IMG/VR virus record: IMGVR_UViG_3300048433_000130
Coordinates: 1 to 26,860 of that record
Length of the DNA: 26,860 nt
From: a virus
Direction: 5' to 3' (one strand)
Below are positions 19,032 through 24,284 of this stretch, one piece after another (the stretch's first letter is position 1; every line of letters starts with the position of its first letter). The notes beneath the pieces were generated by a model. The model saw only the letters and a list, made by a program, of their open reading frames with translations, had not been told where the DNA came from and did no database searches. Made by a program: the position numbers and the translations under genes.

Positions 19032-22000
19032 ATGGCAACATTTAGTGTAAACGAAACAGCTAGAAGAGTACAATATGTTTCTACTGGACAGACTACTTAT
19101 AATTTTAACTTTCAAGTTAATGCTGCATCTGAGTTACAAGTCTATGTTAATGATACTCTTCAAGTAGATAGTGTATCTTATAGTGCTACAATAGGTTCAT
19201 CTGGTTCTGGTTCTATTGCTTTTATAAACAACTCTGGAAGTGGTGGTACTAATTACACACCATCTAATGGAGATTATATTACTATTATTGGTGATCTACC
19301 TTTATCCAGAACAACATCTTTAAATAATGCAGCAGATATTACTACAACAAATTTAGATACAGAATTCGATAATACTTTATTTAGACAACAACAATTAAAA
19401 GAAATGATGGATCGTTCCATCCAATTAAAAGTTACTACTCCAAGAACAGTAACAAGCACAGGAACCAATGGGCCATTACAATTTCCTTATGATGCAACTG
19501 TATCAAACAATGCCGATAAACTTATAGCCTATGATAGCAATGGTACATCTTTAATATTAGGACCAACATCTGCTGGATTAACTACACTTTCAACAATCAG
19601 TACAGAAGTTCAAGCTCTTGCTGCTAAGACAACTGAAATTGGAAGATTAGGTACTGCTGATGCTGTAGCAGATATGAATACCCTGGGTACTGCTGACGTA
19701 GTGGCTGATATGAATACTTTAGCTACTGCCGATGTAGTGGCTGACATGAATACCCTGGGTACTACAGATGTAGTAAGCGATATGAATACTTTGGCTACTT
19801 CTCAAAATGTAACTAACATGAATACCCTTGCCGGTATAAGCTCGGCAATAACTGGAGTGAATAATATTTCTGCTGCTGTTTCAGCTGTCAATTCAAATGC
19901 TACTAATATTAATGCTGTCAATTCTAACTCGAGCAATATTAATGCTGTGGCTGGTAAAGTTACTGAAATAGGATTACTTGGTACTTCAGATGCTATTGCT
20001 GATATGGCATTATTAGGCACGAGTGATGTAGTTGCTGACATGGCTTTACTTGCTACGTCAGATGTTATTGCTGATATGGCTCAACTTGCTAGTTCAGATT
20101 TTATTGCAGATTTAAATACTCTTGCAACTTCAGACATTGTTACTGATATGAATTTATTAGCAACAACAGCTAACGTAAATAATATGGCAACTCTTGGAGC
20201 AAGTGGTGTTGTTGGAAATATTGCAACTACTGCTGGATCTATAAGTAATATAAATTCGGTAGCTGGATCTATAAGCAACGTAAATACTGTTGCATCAAAT
20301 ATTTCTTCAGTAAATAGTTTTGCAAATACTTATCGTATTTCTGCAAATGCCCCAACTTCAAGTTTAGATGTAGGTGATTTATGGTTCGATACAACAAACA
20401 ATGTTATGAAAGTCTACGCATCTGGTGGATTTATTACAGCTGCGTCTGCTGTTAATGGTACTGCTAATAGGTTTACATTTACAGCAACTGCTAATCAAAC
20501 AACATTTACTGGCTCGGATGATAATTCAAATACCCTGGGATACGATGCCGGATTTGTGGATATTTATTTGAATGGTATAAAATTAGTTTCTGGTGGATCT
20601 AATGACTATGTAGCAACTAATGGCACAAGTGTGGTCCTAAATTCTGGAGCTGCTGCCAATGATATTTTACAAATAGTGGCCTATGGTACTTTTGAGTTAG
20701 CAAACTTTTCTATCAATGCTGCTAGTGATGTTAACACAACTGGTTTAGCAACTAATGATTTATTAAGATACGATGGAACAAACTTTGTACCAAAAAGTTT
20801 TGATGAAATTACACCATCACAATCTAGTAATTCTGGTAAATTTTTAACTACTGATGGAACCAATAGTTCCTGGGGTACAGTTAATACAAATTTAGTAGCA
20901 GACACATCTCCACAATTAGGGGGTAACTTAGATGGTAATGGAAACACAATAGATTTATCTGGTAGCACAACAGAATTAAGATTGCCTAGAGGAACAAGTT
21001 CACAACAACCAACACCTTCTACTGCTAATGAAGGTGCAATTAGATACGATACAGATGATAATGTTGTTTATTATTCTGATGGTAGTAGTTGGATTAAAAT
21101 AAATTCTACGATCCCTACACTAAGTAGTGTTAGTGGAACCATTATTGTTGGTGATGCTTCAAACCTTACATTAACAGGAACAGGATTTTTAACATCATCA
21201 CTTATTGTTAATTTTGTACAAACATCTGATAGCATTAATGAAAATGTTACAGTTACTGCATCTTCAAATACTTCTGCTACAGTTGCTGTTCCAGCAGCTG
21301 TTTATAATAATGTTACATCTGGTAATGCTGTTACTATAAAAGTTACAAATGCAGATGGTGGTGTCAGTAATACAATAAATAAAAATGCTTTAGCTCTACC
21401 TACTGGTGGATCTATTACTACTTCTGGTAATTTTAGAATACACACTTTCACATCTTCTGGAACATTTGGTAATACTGTTGCAAATCTTTCAGTACAATAT
21501 TTAGTTATTGCTGGAGGTGGTGGAGGTGGAGCAGACTATGGTGGTGCTGGTGGTGCCGGAGGGTATCGTACTTCTGCTACTAGCCAAACTTCTGGAAGAA
21601 ACTCTTCTACTGAAAGTGCTTTAACATTATCGACAGGAAACAAAACTGTTACTGTTGGTGCTGGTGGTGCTGGTGGTATTCACTCTAATACCATAAGAGG
21701 TAATACTGGATCTAATTCTGTCTTTGATAGCATAACATCTAATGGTGGTGGTTTTGGAGGCGGTGAAGGTAATGGTGCTGGTGGTAATGGTGGTTCTGGT
21801 GGTGGAGGAAACTATGGTGGTAGTGGTGGCTCTGGTACATCTGGACAAGGATTTGATGGAGGTAATGGTGTATCTGGACCTCACTACTCACAAGCTGGTG
21901 GAGGTGGTGCTGGTTCTGCTGGAGTAAACGCAACATCCTCAAGTAATGGTAATGGTGGAAATGGTTTAGCAAATAATATTACAGGATCTTCTGTAACTAG

Positions 22001-22223
22001 AGCTGGTGGTGGGGGTGGAGGTTATTCTTCAGACCAAAACATTGCTGCTGCAAGTGGTGGTTCCGGAGGTGGAGGAAATGGTGGAGGAAGTGGATCAAAT
22101 GGCCAAGCTGGTACAGATAACACAGGATCTGGTGGAGGTGGTGCTGGTGGAGCTGGTACAACTACTGGTGGTCAAGGTGGCTCCGGAATAGTAATCGTAA
22201 GGTATGATACAACAACAATTTAA
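19032..22223 (+). CDS. Tail fibre protein with T7-type N-terminus and glycine-rich C-terminal adhesin domain
   Basis: A 1063-residue fibre. Residues about 1-140 match the T7 gp17-type tail-attachment domain (M-A-T-F-S-V-N-E-T-A-R-R, Y-x-F-N-F-Q-V, then a helix with D-N-T-L-F-R-Q-Q-Q-L-K-E-M-M-D-R). Two blocks of 12-residue repeats (residues 206-265 and 316-399) form a probable trimeric shaft, with T-L-G-T-A-D-V-V-A-D-M-N as the unit. Beta-rich modules follow (residues about 475-560, then an IPT/TIG-like V-S-G-T-I-I-V-G-D-A-S-N-L-T-L-T at about 700-780). From about residue 820 the protein is glycine-rich, starting Y-L-V-I-A-G-G-G-G-G-G and ending G-G-S-G-I-V-I-V-R-Y. Such Gly-rich domains can form polyglycine helix bundles that display receptor-binding loops, as in T-even gp38-type adhesins; this is the likely receptor-binding part. 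It is followed by a MAH protein. Confidence 0.92.
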   Translation: MATFSVNETARRVQYVSTGQTTYNFNFQVNAASELQVYVNDTLQVDSVSYSATIGSSGSGSIAFINNSGSGGTNYTPSNGDYITIIGDLPLSRTTSLNNAADITTTNLDTEFDNTLFRQQQLKEMMDRSIQLKVTTPRTVTSTGTNGPLQFPYDATVSNNADKLIAYDSNGTSLILGPTSAGLTTLSTISTEVQALAAKTTEIGRLGTADAVADMNTLGTADVVADMNTLATADVVADMNTLGTTDVVSDMNTLATSQNVTNMNTLAGISSAITGVNNISAAVSAVNSNATNINAVNSNSSNINAVAGKVTEIGLLGTSDAIADMALLGTSDVVADMALLATSDVIADMAQLASSDFIADLNTLATSDIVTDMNLLATTANVNNMATLGASGVVGNIATTAGSISNINSVAGSISNVNTVASNISSVNSFANTYRISANAPTSSLDVGDLWFDTTNNVMKVYASGGFITAASAVNGTANRFTFTATANQTTFTGSDDNSNTLGYDAGFVDIYLNGIKLVSGGSNDYVATNGTSVVLNSGAAANDILQIVAYGTFELANFSINAASDVNTTGLATNDLLRYDGTNFVPKSFDEITPSQSSNSGKFLTTDGTNSSWGTVNTNLVADTSPQLGGNLDGNGNTIDLSGSTTELRLPRGTSSQQPTPSTANEGAIRYDTDDNVVYYSDGSSWIKINSTIPTLSSVSGTIIVGDASNLTLTGTGFLTSSLIVNFVQTSDSINENVTVTASSNTSATVAVPAAVYNNVTSGNAVTIKVTNADGGVSNTINKNALALPTGGSITTSGNFRIHTFTSSGTFGNTVANLSVQYLVIAGGGGGGADYGGAGGAGGYRTSATSQTSGRNSSTESALTLSTGNKTVTVGAGGAGGIHSNTIRGNTGSNSVFDSITSNGGGFGGGEGNGAGGNGGSGGGGNYGGSGGSGTSGQGFDGGNGVSGPHYSQAGGGGAGSAGVNATSSSNGNGGNGLANNITGSSVTRAGGGGGGYSSDQNIAAASGGSGGGGNGGGSGSNGQAGTDNTGSGGGGAGGAGTTTGGQGGSGIVIVRYDTTTI
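19647..19826 (+). repeat. Fibre shaft repeat block 1 (five 36-bp units)
   Basis: Five consecutive 12-codon units (residues 206-265) follow the pattern L-[GA]-T-x-D-x-V-x-D-M-N-T, with the fifth degenerate. Neighbouring units are close at DNA level (for example TGAATACCCTGGGTACT in several copies). The block is preceded by K-T-T-E-I-G-R, matched before block 2 by K-V-T-E-I-G-L. Confidence 0.9.
19977..20228 (+). repeat. Fibre shaft repeat block 2 (seven 36-bp units) plus shorter repeats
   Basis: Seven 12-codon units (residues 316-399) with consensus L-x-[TS]-S-D-x-[VI]-x-D-M-x-x, decaying toward the end. They then change to 10-residue units of the type V-A-G-S-I-S-N-x-N-x. Block 2 shares its entry sequence with block 1, which suggests a larger duplication within the fibre. 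Confidence 0.88.
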
Positions 22224-22235
22224 GGAGAATAAATA

Positions 22236-22628
22236 ATGGCTCATTATGCAAAAGTATTAGATGGTAAAGTGATAAATGTTATCGTAGCTGAAAAAGAATT
22301 TTTTGATACATTTGTTGATGATACTCCAGGAGAATGGATACAAACTTCTTATAATACAAGAGGTGGAATTCATTATCAGCCTAACACAAATACACCAAGT
22401 GATGATCAATCAAAAGCTCTAAGAAAAAATTATGCTGGTTTTGGATACACTTACGATAAAGATAAAGATGCCTTTATAGCACCTCAACCTTTTACATCTT
22501 GGACACTTAATGAAACAACTTGTTTGTGGGAACCTCCTATAACAAAACCAACAGGACATTATAAATGGGATGAAGAATTATATCAAAGTGATAACATGAA
22601 AGGATGGGTAGAAATAACAAATGACTAA
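22236..22628 (+). CDS. MAH-family fibre-associated protein 1
   Basis: A 130-residue protein behind a strong site AAGGAG (22222-22227), 8 bases before the start. It belongs to the same family as the product of 23937-24284. Shared features are M-A-H-[YF]-x-K, K-V-x-x-V-x-V, W-x-Q-T-S-Y-N, R-K-N-[YF]-A-G-x-G-x-T-Y-D, D-A-F-I-x-P-x-P-F-x-S-W-T-L-x-E-x-T-C-L-W and a final Y-x-W-x-E-E. It has an extra loop with H-Y-Q-P-N-T-N-T-P-S-D. I recall small proteins of this form as widespread beside fibre genes in marine phages, with no settled role. A fibre cap, assembly factor or tip protein is plausible from position. Confidence 0.8.
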   Translation: MAHYAKVLDGKVINVIVAEKEFFDTFVDDTPGEWIQTSYNTRGGIHYQPNTNTPSDDQSKALRKNYAGFGYTYDKDKDAFIAPQPFTSWTLNETTCLWEPPITKPTGHYKWDEELYQSDNMKGWVEITND

Positions 22629-23937
22629 AGCTAGAAAAATTTCTGATCTATTAGATGCAAATGGTCAAGTAGATAATTCAGATATACTTAATGTAGATGC
22701 TGCTAAAGTTACTACAGGAACATTTGCAGCAGCTAGAATAGATAATAATTCTTTAGGTAATGTTACAGCTTTACCTTTTACAACTGGAACAGATTGGCAA
22801 TCATCAATTAAAACATCTGATTTTACAGCAGCTGCTAATAAAGGTTATTGGGTAGATACATCATCAAACACAGTAACTGTTACTTTCCCCTCTTCTGCAA
22901 GTGTAGGGGATACTATTGAATTAGTAGACTATGCAAGAAATTGGGCAACAAATAAAATTATTATAGATAGTAATGGATTAAACTATCAAGGAGATCCAGA
23001 CACATTTAATGTTGAATACGACACAAGTGGTCAAGGATTAAGAATAGTTTATTCTGGTGCAACTAAAGGATGGATACCTACTTCTGATGATGTTTCAGAA
23101 GATAATCCAGCACCTCCTACTTATAACATAAATACTTTAACTATTGCTGGAGGTGGAGCTGGTGGTAATAGACACTCTGGTGGTGGTGGTGCTGGGGGTA
23201 TGTTAACAACAAACTCAGTAACTTTAAATCAAGGAATACAGTACACTATTACTGTAGGTGCTGGAGGAGCTGGAACAGCTTATGATGCATCTGCTGGTAA
23301 TAATGGGGTAAACTCAACTATTTCTGGTAGTAATATATCAACACTTACTGCTTTCGGTGGAGGTGGTGGAGGTATCTACCACAATGCTGGTCACATAAAT
23401 GGACAAAATGGTGGCTCTGGTGGGGGTGGTGCATCAACGTCTACTGGAGGATCTGGAACATCTGGTCAAGGTAATAATGGAGGAAGTGGTACTGGTCAAA
23501 CTGCATCAGAATATGGAGGGGCCGGAGGTGGTGGAGCTGGAGCTGCTGGTTCTAATGGATCTGGTGCTGCTGGTGGTGCTGGTGGAAATGGTGCTGCATC
23601 TTCTATTACTGGTTCATCTGTAACATATGCTGGAGGTGGAGGTGGTTCTTCTTACAGTACTAATAGTGCTGGAGGTGCAGCTGGTTCTGGTGGTGGTGCA
23701 GCTGGTACTGGAACAGAACCTGGAAATAATGCGTCAGTAAACACCGGTGGTGGTGGAGGTGGTAACACACACGACAATTCTGGTACTAGTAGATCTGGTA
23801 ATGGTGGTTCTGGTATAGTAATATTAAGCATACCTACTGCTAATTATTCTGGAACAACAACTGGTTCACCATCAGTTGCAACATCTGGTTCAAATAAAAT
23901 ATTAACATTTACAGGTTCGGGGAGTTATACAGCATAA
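22621..23937 (+). CDS. Second fibre/adhesin protein with glycine-rich domain
   Basis: A 438-residue protein overlapping the first MAH gene by 8 bases. Residues 1-40 (M-T-K-A-R-K-I-S-D-L-L-D-A-N-G) resemble attachment segments common in marine phage fibres. Residues about 55-155 form a beta module (Y-W-V-D-T-S-S-N-T-V-T-V-T-F-P), and residues about 170-405 a Gly-rich domain. It lacks the T7-type N-terminus and shaft repeats of the first fibre. Its Gly-rich part is homologous to the first: both hold G-S-G-T-S-G-Q-G, I-T-G-S-S-V-T, a T-V-G-A-G-G-A-G strand and the ending G-G-S-G-I-V-I. A short beta tail (T-N-K-I-L-T-F-like) follows. It could bind on the first fibre or be an alternative tip. Confidence 0.85.
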   Translation: MTKARKISDLLDANGQVDNSDILNVDAAKVTTGTFAAARIDNNSLGNVTALPFTTGTDWQSSIKTSDFTAAANKGYWVDTSSNTVTVTFPSSASVGDTIELVDYARNWATNKIIIDSNGLNYQGDPDTFNVEYDTSGQGLRIVYSGATKGWIPTSDDVSEDNPAPPTYNINTLTIAGGGAGGNRHSGGGGAGGMLTTNSVTLNQGIQYTITVGAGGAGTAYDASAGNNGVNSTISGSNISTLTAFGGGGGGIYHNAGHINGQNGGSGGGGASTSTGGSGTSGQGNNGGSGTGQTASEYGGAGGGGAGAAGSNGSGAAGGAGGNGAASSITGSSVTYAGGGGGSSYSTNSAGGAAGSGGGAAGTGTEPGNNASVNTGGGGGGNTHDNSGTSRSGNGGSGIVILSIPTANYSGTTTGSPSVATSGSNKILTFTGSGSYTA

Positions 23938-24284
23938 TGGCACATTTTGTAAAATTAGGAATGGGGAATAAAGTCTTAACAGTTGAAGTAGTATCTAATG
24001 ACATTGCAACAACTGAACAAGCTGGAGTAGATTTTTTAAATAACTTATATGGAACAAGGGATGTTTGGAAACAAACTTCTTATAATGGAACAATAAGAAA
24101 AAACTTTGCTGGTGTTGGTGATACTTACGATCAAACTAGAGATGCATTTATTTCACCAAAACCTTTTAACAGTTGGACATTAGATGAAGATACTTGTCTA
24201 TGGAAAGCTCCAGTTGATTATCCTACAGATGGACAAAGATATTATTGGAATGAAGAAACACAATCTTGGGAATTAACAGAATAA
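23937..24284 (+). CDS. MAH-family fibre-associated protein 2
   Basis: A 115-residue paralogue of the 22236-22628 product, starting on the last base of the second fibre (TAATG). Matching positions include W-K-Q-T-S-Y-N, R-K-N-F-A-G-V-G, T-Y-D, D-A-F-I-S-P-K-P-F-N-S-W-T-L and D-T-C-L-W. It differs mostly by lacking the insertion near residue 50 and by a more divergent first 35 residues. Its repeated place directly after a Gly-rich fibre gene argues for a functional pair with that fibre. The exact role is unknown. Confidence 0.8.
   Translation: MAHFVKLGMGNKVLTVEVVSNDIATTEQAGVDFLNNLYGTRDVWKQTSYNGTIRKNFAGVGDTYDQTRDAFISPKPFNSWTLDEDTCLWKAPVDYPTDGQRYYWNEETQSWELTE

Follow-up and report, generated by a model that had tools for sequence, protein, structure and literature searches.

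Tandem fibre-MAH cassettes in a viral genome suggest that MAH proteins are chaperones of glycine-rich fibre tips

The window analysed here (the whole 26,860-base stretch of virus record IMGVR_UViG_3300048433_000130) belongs to a marine bacterial virus and carries two genes for fibres that end in a glycine-rich (Gly-rich) domain, each followed by a gene for a small protein, MAH, of family PHROG 7759. We interpret these as two adhesin-chaperone cassettes in which MAH would serve the Gly-rich fibre tips as an intermolecular folding chaperone (or cap), a reading to which we assign a probability of about 0.74. The argument builds on observations made by comparing genomes, namely the structure of the cassettes, the pairing of MAH with Gly-rich fibres, the co-divergence of the two partners, their exchange as units and the two strand orders found in the Gly-rich domain. 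The order Gly-rich fibre, MAH, Gly-rich fibre, MAH at 19032-24284, proposed earlier from the bare sequence (hereafter the sequence-only reading), is confirmed by the open reading frames. The features concerned are listed here, the N-form and C-form being those in which a mobile beta-strand lies before or after the Gly-rich core, respectively.

19032..22223, + strand: fibre 1, 1063 residues, with a podoviral-type N-terminus, an LED-like repeat shaft and a C-terminal Gly-rich domain (PF21722) in the N-form.
21411..21467, + strand: mobile beta-strand motif SITTSGNFRIHTFTSSGTF, fibre 1 residues 794-812, N-terminal to the Gly-rich core; 37-43 bits against the strand profile, and a BLASTP match to fibre 2 residues 418-436.
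21498..22187, + strand: Gly-rich core of fibre 1, residues 823-1052; AlphaFold2 predicted local distance difference test (pLDDT) about 93, with a Foldseek match to Pam3 gp24 (7ypx_A).
22236..22628, + strand: MAH1, 130 residues, PHROG 7759, proposed chaperone of fibre 1; 12-nucleotide gap from the fibre 1 stop, with AAGGAG upstream.
22621..23937, + strand: fibre 2, 438 residues, with a short MTKAR-type N-terminus, a beta domain and a C-terminal Gly-rich domain (PF21722) in the C-form; its start overlaps the MAH1 stop in ATGACTAA.
23146..23814, + strand: Gly-rich core of fibre 2, about residues 176-398.
23872..23928, + strand: mobile beta-strand motif SVATSGSNKILTFTGSGSY, fibre 2 residues 418-436, C-terminal to the Gly-rich core; 20.9 bits, E 1.3e-5 (Z=1000), with the second-pass strand profile.
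23937..24284, + strand: MAH2, 115 residues, PHROG 7759, proposed chaperone of fibre 2; its start overlaps the fibre 2 stop in TAATG.
22635..24281, + strand: exchangeable interval comprising the fibre 2 body and MAH2; replaced in locus L090, with 22794-24253 common to locus L037 at 86% nucleotide identity.

Both fibres match PF21722 (Gly_rich_2) above its gathering score of 24.3 (fibre 1, E 5.7e-17, 62.9 bits; fibre 2, E 2e-23, 84.0 bits), and both contain the three Gly-domain motifs named in the sequence-only reading. MAH1 and MAH2 match the PHROG 7759 profile over their full length (E 2.5e-28 and 4.2e-39, respectively), a profile that distant phage homologues match too, and are homologous to one another (43% identity, tblastn E 3.6e-20; 43-50% across comparisons). 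The five motifs on which their kinship was originally proposed are indeed present in each; as every one of these also occurs in 35-70% of 226 distinct homologues, the motifs are family-wide and their sharing is no evidence of recent duplication. MAH proteins are mostly 98-138 residues long and match no Pfam family. The earlier statement that they have no known function agrees with the listing of PHROG 7759 as function unknown, and is superseded insofar as a probable function, fibre-tip chaperone, is now proposed. Hundreds of marine viral contigs carry the family (each of two queries gave about 400 matches), as do Pelagibacter, Roseobacter, Methylophilales and cyanobacterial phages that have been isolated; the annotation is nearly always 'hypothetical protein'. 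In the cultured phage HTVC025P the MAH is gp44. A scan of bacterial genome contigs recovered MAH from only two contigs of metagenome-assembled genomes (L237, Chitinophagales; L236, Flavobacteriaceae), possibly prophages or binned phage contigs, indicating that the family is essentially viral. Long variants of about 160-193 residues (the second MAH of L014-L016; L171-L173 and L177) are extended at the C-terminus, in many cases with additional hairpin-like W-(D/N)E-W repeats; a helical chaperone domain was considered for these and rejected, there being no family match and the sequences resembling extra hairpins.

The association of MAH with fibres is borne out across the loci collected, a sample that was fetched by MAH and is hence biased towards MAH-bearing loci. 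A Gly-rich gene lies directly upstream in 193 of the 207 MAH genes that have an upstream gene (background 14%), and most of the distant MAHs, from other phage groups, are likewise preceded by one. MAH does not always follow such a fibre: most exceptions are the second MAH of a tandem or lie at contig ends, and a cyanomyovirus group with another arrangement is considered below. In P-RSM4 an inverted carbamoyltransferase gene separates MAH from the Gly-rich fibre. At the fibre-MAH junctions the genes usually overlap or are at most 13 bases apart, with a -1 overlap in 62 of 187 cases, mostly TAATG, and a Shine-Dalgarno-like site in 162 of 187. One cassette is present in 127 loci, two in 12 and three in 7, alongside loci with paired MAHs or with several Gly-rich fibres and one MAH; the adhesin-plus-partner unit envisaged by the sequence-only reading is thus a real module that forms arrays elsewhere. 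Two consecutive MAH genes behind a single Gly-rich fibre were seen in L014-L016, L113-L115, L118 and L134. The N-termini of the fibres that precede MAH are highly diverse, ranging from T7-like to almost none, so that MAH goes with the Gly-rich tip, the constant element.

The partners also diverge together, the correlation of distance matrices being higher between MAH and the Gly-rich core (r = 0.65) than between MAH and the fibre N-terminus (r = 0.35). When partners were swapped within multi-cassette loci, none of 1000 swaps reached the observed r of 0.640 (mean 0.440, maximum 0.616), and because the swaps were made within a locus, shared genome history is removed as a cause of this co-divergence. 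Were MAH merely encoded next to fibres in an operon, with a role in the virion or in lysis that has nothing to do with them, the existence of some Gly-rich fibres without MAH would be readily accommodated; such partner-specific co-divergence, however, together with the exchange of MAH along with the fibre body and the fold matches of both genes to the partners of one fibre-chaperone complex (both described below), makes this quite improbable.

The MAH2 model (pLDDT 94.9) consists of strands, one helix (27-38) and then C-terminal beta-hairpins. In a Foldseek search of the PDB its two highest query-normalised template modelling (TM) scores, among the 50 matches listed, were to gp25 of cyanophage Pam3 (7ypx_a; 0.41, 2.5 A) and to Mu Tfa (5yvq_B; 0.31), while the nearest viral models were uncharacterised tailed-phage proteins. 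A further model joined the fibre 1 tip to MAH1 by read-through of the fibre 1 stop, an artificial tether that carries no biological claim; this matched Pam3 gp24 (7ypx_A; E 6.1e-5, probability 1.00), the Bxb1 tail tip (E 2.8e-5) and gp25 (7ypx_a; probability 0.63). The two halves of the cassette therefore lead to the two members of a single known complex, in which gp25 is an experimentally shown chaperone of the Gly-rich fibre gp24, promotes soluble trimeric gp24 and binds it at the junction of the tumour necrosis factor (TNF)-like and Gly-rich regions (PMC9608196). The predicted fold similarity of MAH to fibre chaperones, which may extend to a fibre-binding N-terminal beta-sandwich domain like that of gp25 and TfaMu, is supported, if more weakly, by these models. 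A Tfa-like mode of action is the best reading.

A number of results weigh against assigning MAH to tip chaperoning. The Foldseek E-values of MAH to chaperones are not significant alone (2.7 and 4.3 for the MAH2 model, 1.0 for the tethered model), a sequence search of the PDB with the MAH profile gave nothing significant and no chaperone match, and the predicted TM score (pTM) of the tethered model, 0.78, is a figure that does not decide the docking of MAH on the fibre. MAH is without the C-terminal alpha-helical trimerisation domain of the Tfa/gp25 group, and is accordingly not filed here as a Tfa-family member; it gave no Tfa/DUF4376 match and no match to a Tfa Pfam family or PHROG. The reverse pairing is weaker, MAH standing directly behind about 72% of the Gly-rich genes in the sampled loci. 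For 64 distinct Gly-rich fibres in these loci the next gene is not a MAH, which leaves two options: a single MAH acts on more than one fibre, or certain fibres do without. A restriction of MAH to one type of Gly-rich domain was considered and is not a rule, since 57 of those 64 fibres are PF21722 too. Lastly, in one cyanomyovirus group MAH stands behind 2-oxoglutarate (2OG)-oxygenase or 'ferrochelatase' genes, with the Gly-rich fibre several genes away.

In L170 and L179-L192 (cyanomyoviruses) and in L009 and L194-L199, distant MAH genes of the tail-fibre region come immediately after a 2OG-Fe(II) oxygenase or 'ferrochelatase' gene, and the Gly-rich fibre is encoded several genes further upstream. 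This arrangement, which cyanomyoviruses share with a group including phage DSL-LC04, might suggest that MAH assists in modifying fibres, perhaps as a partner of the oxygenases, and has no part in folding. No oxygenase or 'ferrochelatase' gene lies beside the window cassettes or between the cassettes of tandem arrays, however, and MAH has no enzyme-like fold match, leaving this idea with very little probability.

In the chaperone mechanism that we propose, the PF21722 Gly-rich tip domain in which each fibre ends would make contact with the host. MAH, whose translation immediately follows that of its own fibre, would bind the tip/beta-sandwich region of the nascent fibre and assist its folding and trimerisation, the part played by gp25 towards gp24 in Pam3. 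After folding, MAH would either leave or stay as a cap. Fibre 1 would be the main tail fibre and fibre 2 the occupant of a conserved accessory slot behind MAH1, at which whole fibre(-MAH) modules are exchanged between marine phages. It is from the comparisons described here that we infer the chaperone activity of MAH, its location with respect to the virion and the receptor roles of the fibres. MAH might alternatively remain on the fibre for good, as a structural protein of the tip with receptor contacts of its own, which has been suggested for Mu Tfa and is the case for S16 gp38: Mu Tfa stays on the fibre (PMC9608196) and is among the fold matches of MAH, whose rigid, well-predicted beta-hairpin C-terminus of variable length would suit a binding surface. 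Against this, gp25, the nearest solved relative, was undetected in Pam3 virions by mass spectrometry (PMC9608196), and MAH is more conserved than the accompanying Gly-rich domain (for example, 74% vs 49% between two cassettes of L022), the opposite of what a receptor-contacting tip would show. We consider a permanent tip unlikely, whilst keeping some weight on it.

The sequence-only reading regarded the second cassette as a tandem duplicate of the first, and here it fails: the window holds two separate, independently acquired cassettes, not one that was copied. The closest outside relatives of MAH1 are up to 98% identical (L090) and those of MAH2, which are many, 70-82% identical, so that both copies have closer kin outside the window than in each other, while the link between a MAH and its own fibre is conserved. 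When 118 MAHs were placed in a tree, MAH2 fell within a 54-row clade (support 96) and MAH1 within a small separate set (support 95); forcing the two into sisterhood on a careful 41-row tree cost 97 log-likelihood units and was rejected by the approximately unbiased (AU) test (p = 3.5e-6). The gene order is the same in both cassettes and their proteins are homologous, as duplication inside this phage lineage would predict, and tandem sisters seem to exist in other phages (e.g. L051). Yet the two Gly-rich domains differ in strand order, and cassette 2 is absent from L090, a near relative with flanks 91-93% identical, whilst being common to the unrelated L037. Duplication in this window is rejected on these grounds; only a hidden history of fast-evolving paralogues could rescue it, and we give it almost no credence.

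The difference in strand order is that SITTSGNFRIHTFTSSGTF precedes the Gly-rich core in fibre 1, whereas its counterpart SVATSGSNKILTFTGSGSY, with which it is paired by BLASTP, follows the core in fibre 2. A strand profile built from N-terminal instances only, and then iterated over 140 related fibres, found 14 C-terminal instances in its first pass; on convergence it assigned 46 fibres to the N-form and 89 to the C-form, with 5 undecided and 0 carrying both, and shuffled controls gave 0 matches at the same threshold. A single copy of the strand per domain, before or after the core, is the prediction of circular permutation, and the Pfam alignment of fibre 2 begins at profile position 15, not 2, as expected if the first strand has moved. 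Judged by sequence, the Gly-rich domains of fibres 1 and 2 are thus apparent circular permutants. The two forms cluster on the MAH tree (11 changes vs 33.7 with shuffled labels, 0 of 500 as low), the whole MAH2-type clade being paired with C-form fibres. Two strand orders within one adhesin family offer a natural experiment on how tips fold and how chaperones recognise them.

Exchange of the cassette as a unit is seen in L090, which matches the window at 92.8% identity as far as 22634 and at 90.9% from 24282 onwards. One breakpoint lies just inside the fibre 2 start, following MTKAR, and the other at the final codon of MAH2; between them, L090 has a 529-residue fibre that contains no Gly-rich domain and is accompanied by no MAH, in place of the fibre 2 body and MAH2. 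Conversely, L037 has little in common with the window beyond the fibre 2 body and MAH2 (22794-24253). In other relatives (L091-L093, L095 and L139) the position behind MAH1 holds other MTKAR-type fibres, and it looks like a dedicated accessory-adhesin slot. The occupants in L091 (3367-4266) and L139 (7125-8024) carry the ALK/LTK-type PF12810 instead of PF21722, and that in L093 carries PF21722; all three are without a MAH of their own. The two-specificity host-recognition device suggested earlier is plausible in the form of a conserved accessory slot with exchangeable adhesins. A wider proposal, for which the odds seem to us about even, is that MAH represents a new structural class of tip chaperone (a Tfa-like N-domain and a W-hairpin C-terminus, with no trimerising helices) serving a Gly-rich domain that has two permuted forms, and that marine phages array up to three such cassettes and exchange each of them whole, presumably altering which hosts are recognised.

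With regard to the rest of the fibres, the T7-type attachment domain attributed to fibre 1 is only partly upheld: fibre 1 itself does not match PF03906 (Phage_T7_tail), but the syntenic fibre of relative L095 does (E 2.9e-6), and residues 10-131 of fibre 1 match a solved tailspike/tail-fibre N-terminus in the PDB (E 5e-4). No T7-type N-terminal domain was seen in fibre 2 in the scans made. The fibre 1 shaft, at about residues 209-375 (window 19656-20157), consists of T-A-D-V-V-A-D-M-N-T-L-type repeats weakly like PF20854 (LED; E 1.8e-5, below the cut-off). A sequence search of the PDB with the Gly-rich domain gave no match, and a search of isolated phages with fibre 2 found few relatives, probably because of low-complexity masking. 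In phage Greip EXVC021P (MT375525.1) a gene at 174-896, which is annotated 'DNA stabilization protein' and has a MAH gene beside it, shares 57% identity with fibre 2 across 244 residues and is probably a misannotated fibre. Upstream of the cassettes the window carries podovirus-type genes, including a head-tail adaptor (PHROG 332) and a tail protein (PHROG 376); on its right side, after MAH2, come two small genes and then late genes that include a holin.

Both the pairing of fibres with chaperones and the horizontal exchange of such pairs are already known (T4, Mu, Pam3 and V22/A5) (PMC7289586, PMC10579305). What appears to be new is the probable role of PHROG 7759, the hairpin-type C-terminus, the cassette arrays and the occurrence of the tip domain in two strand orders, none of which was found described in literature searches that left subscription journals largely uncovered. 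A widespread family is thereby given a probable job, in pairs that move between viruses as units. If MAH is indeed a tip chaperone, the Gly-rich adhesins of SAR11 and other marine phages should become expressible and their receptors accessible, and MAH would mark the borders of host-recognition modules in metagenomic genomes.

Amongst known systems, the cassettes are most like Pam3 gp24-gp25 (PDB 7ypx), which also combines a Gly-rich fibre with a small partner that MAH resembles over part of its length. Unlike gp25, MAH is shorter, has no detectable sequence similarity to it and carries beta-hairpins where gp25 has its C-terminal helical trimerisation domain, and unlike that of gp24, the Gly-rich domain here occurs in two strand orders. 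Mu Tfa (PDB 5yvq) and T4 gp38-type chaperones share the small gene directly behind the fibre gene, but have a conserved helical C-terminal part that MAH does not, and the fold match of MAH to Mu Tfa is weak. The Alteromonas phage pairs V22 gp26-gp27 and A5 gp8-gp9 are similar as fibre-chaperone (or transient cap) modules transferred horizontally among marine phages of different families (PMC7289586, PMC10579305), although they belong to other protein families, with lectin-like fibre heads and DUF4376-type chaperones that have a helical core and beta-hairpin tentacles. Finally, Salmonella phage S16 gp38, a Gly-rich adhesin that resembles Pam3 gp24 (PMC9608196), likewise uses a glycine-rich tip for host recognition; gp38, however, is a tip protein in its own right, attached to gp37. 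In the window the Gly-rich domain belongs to the fibre polypeptide itself, and the chaperone-like gene comes after it.

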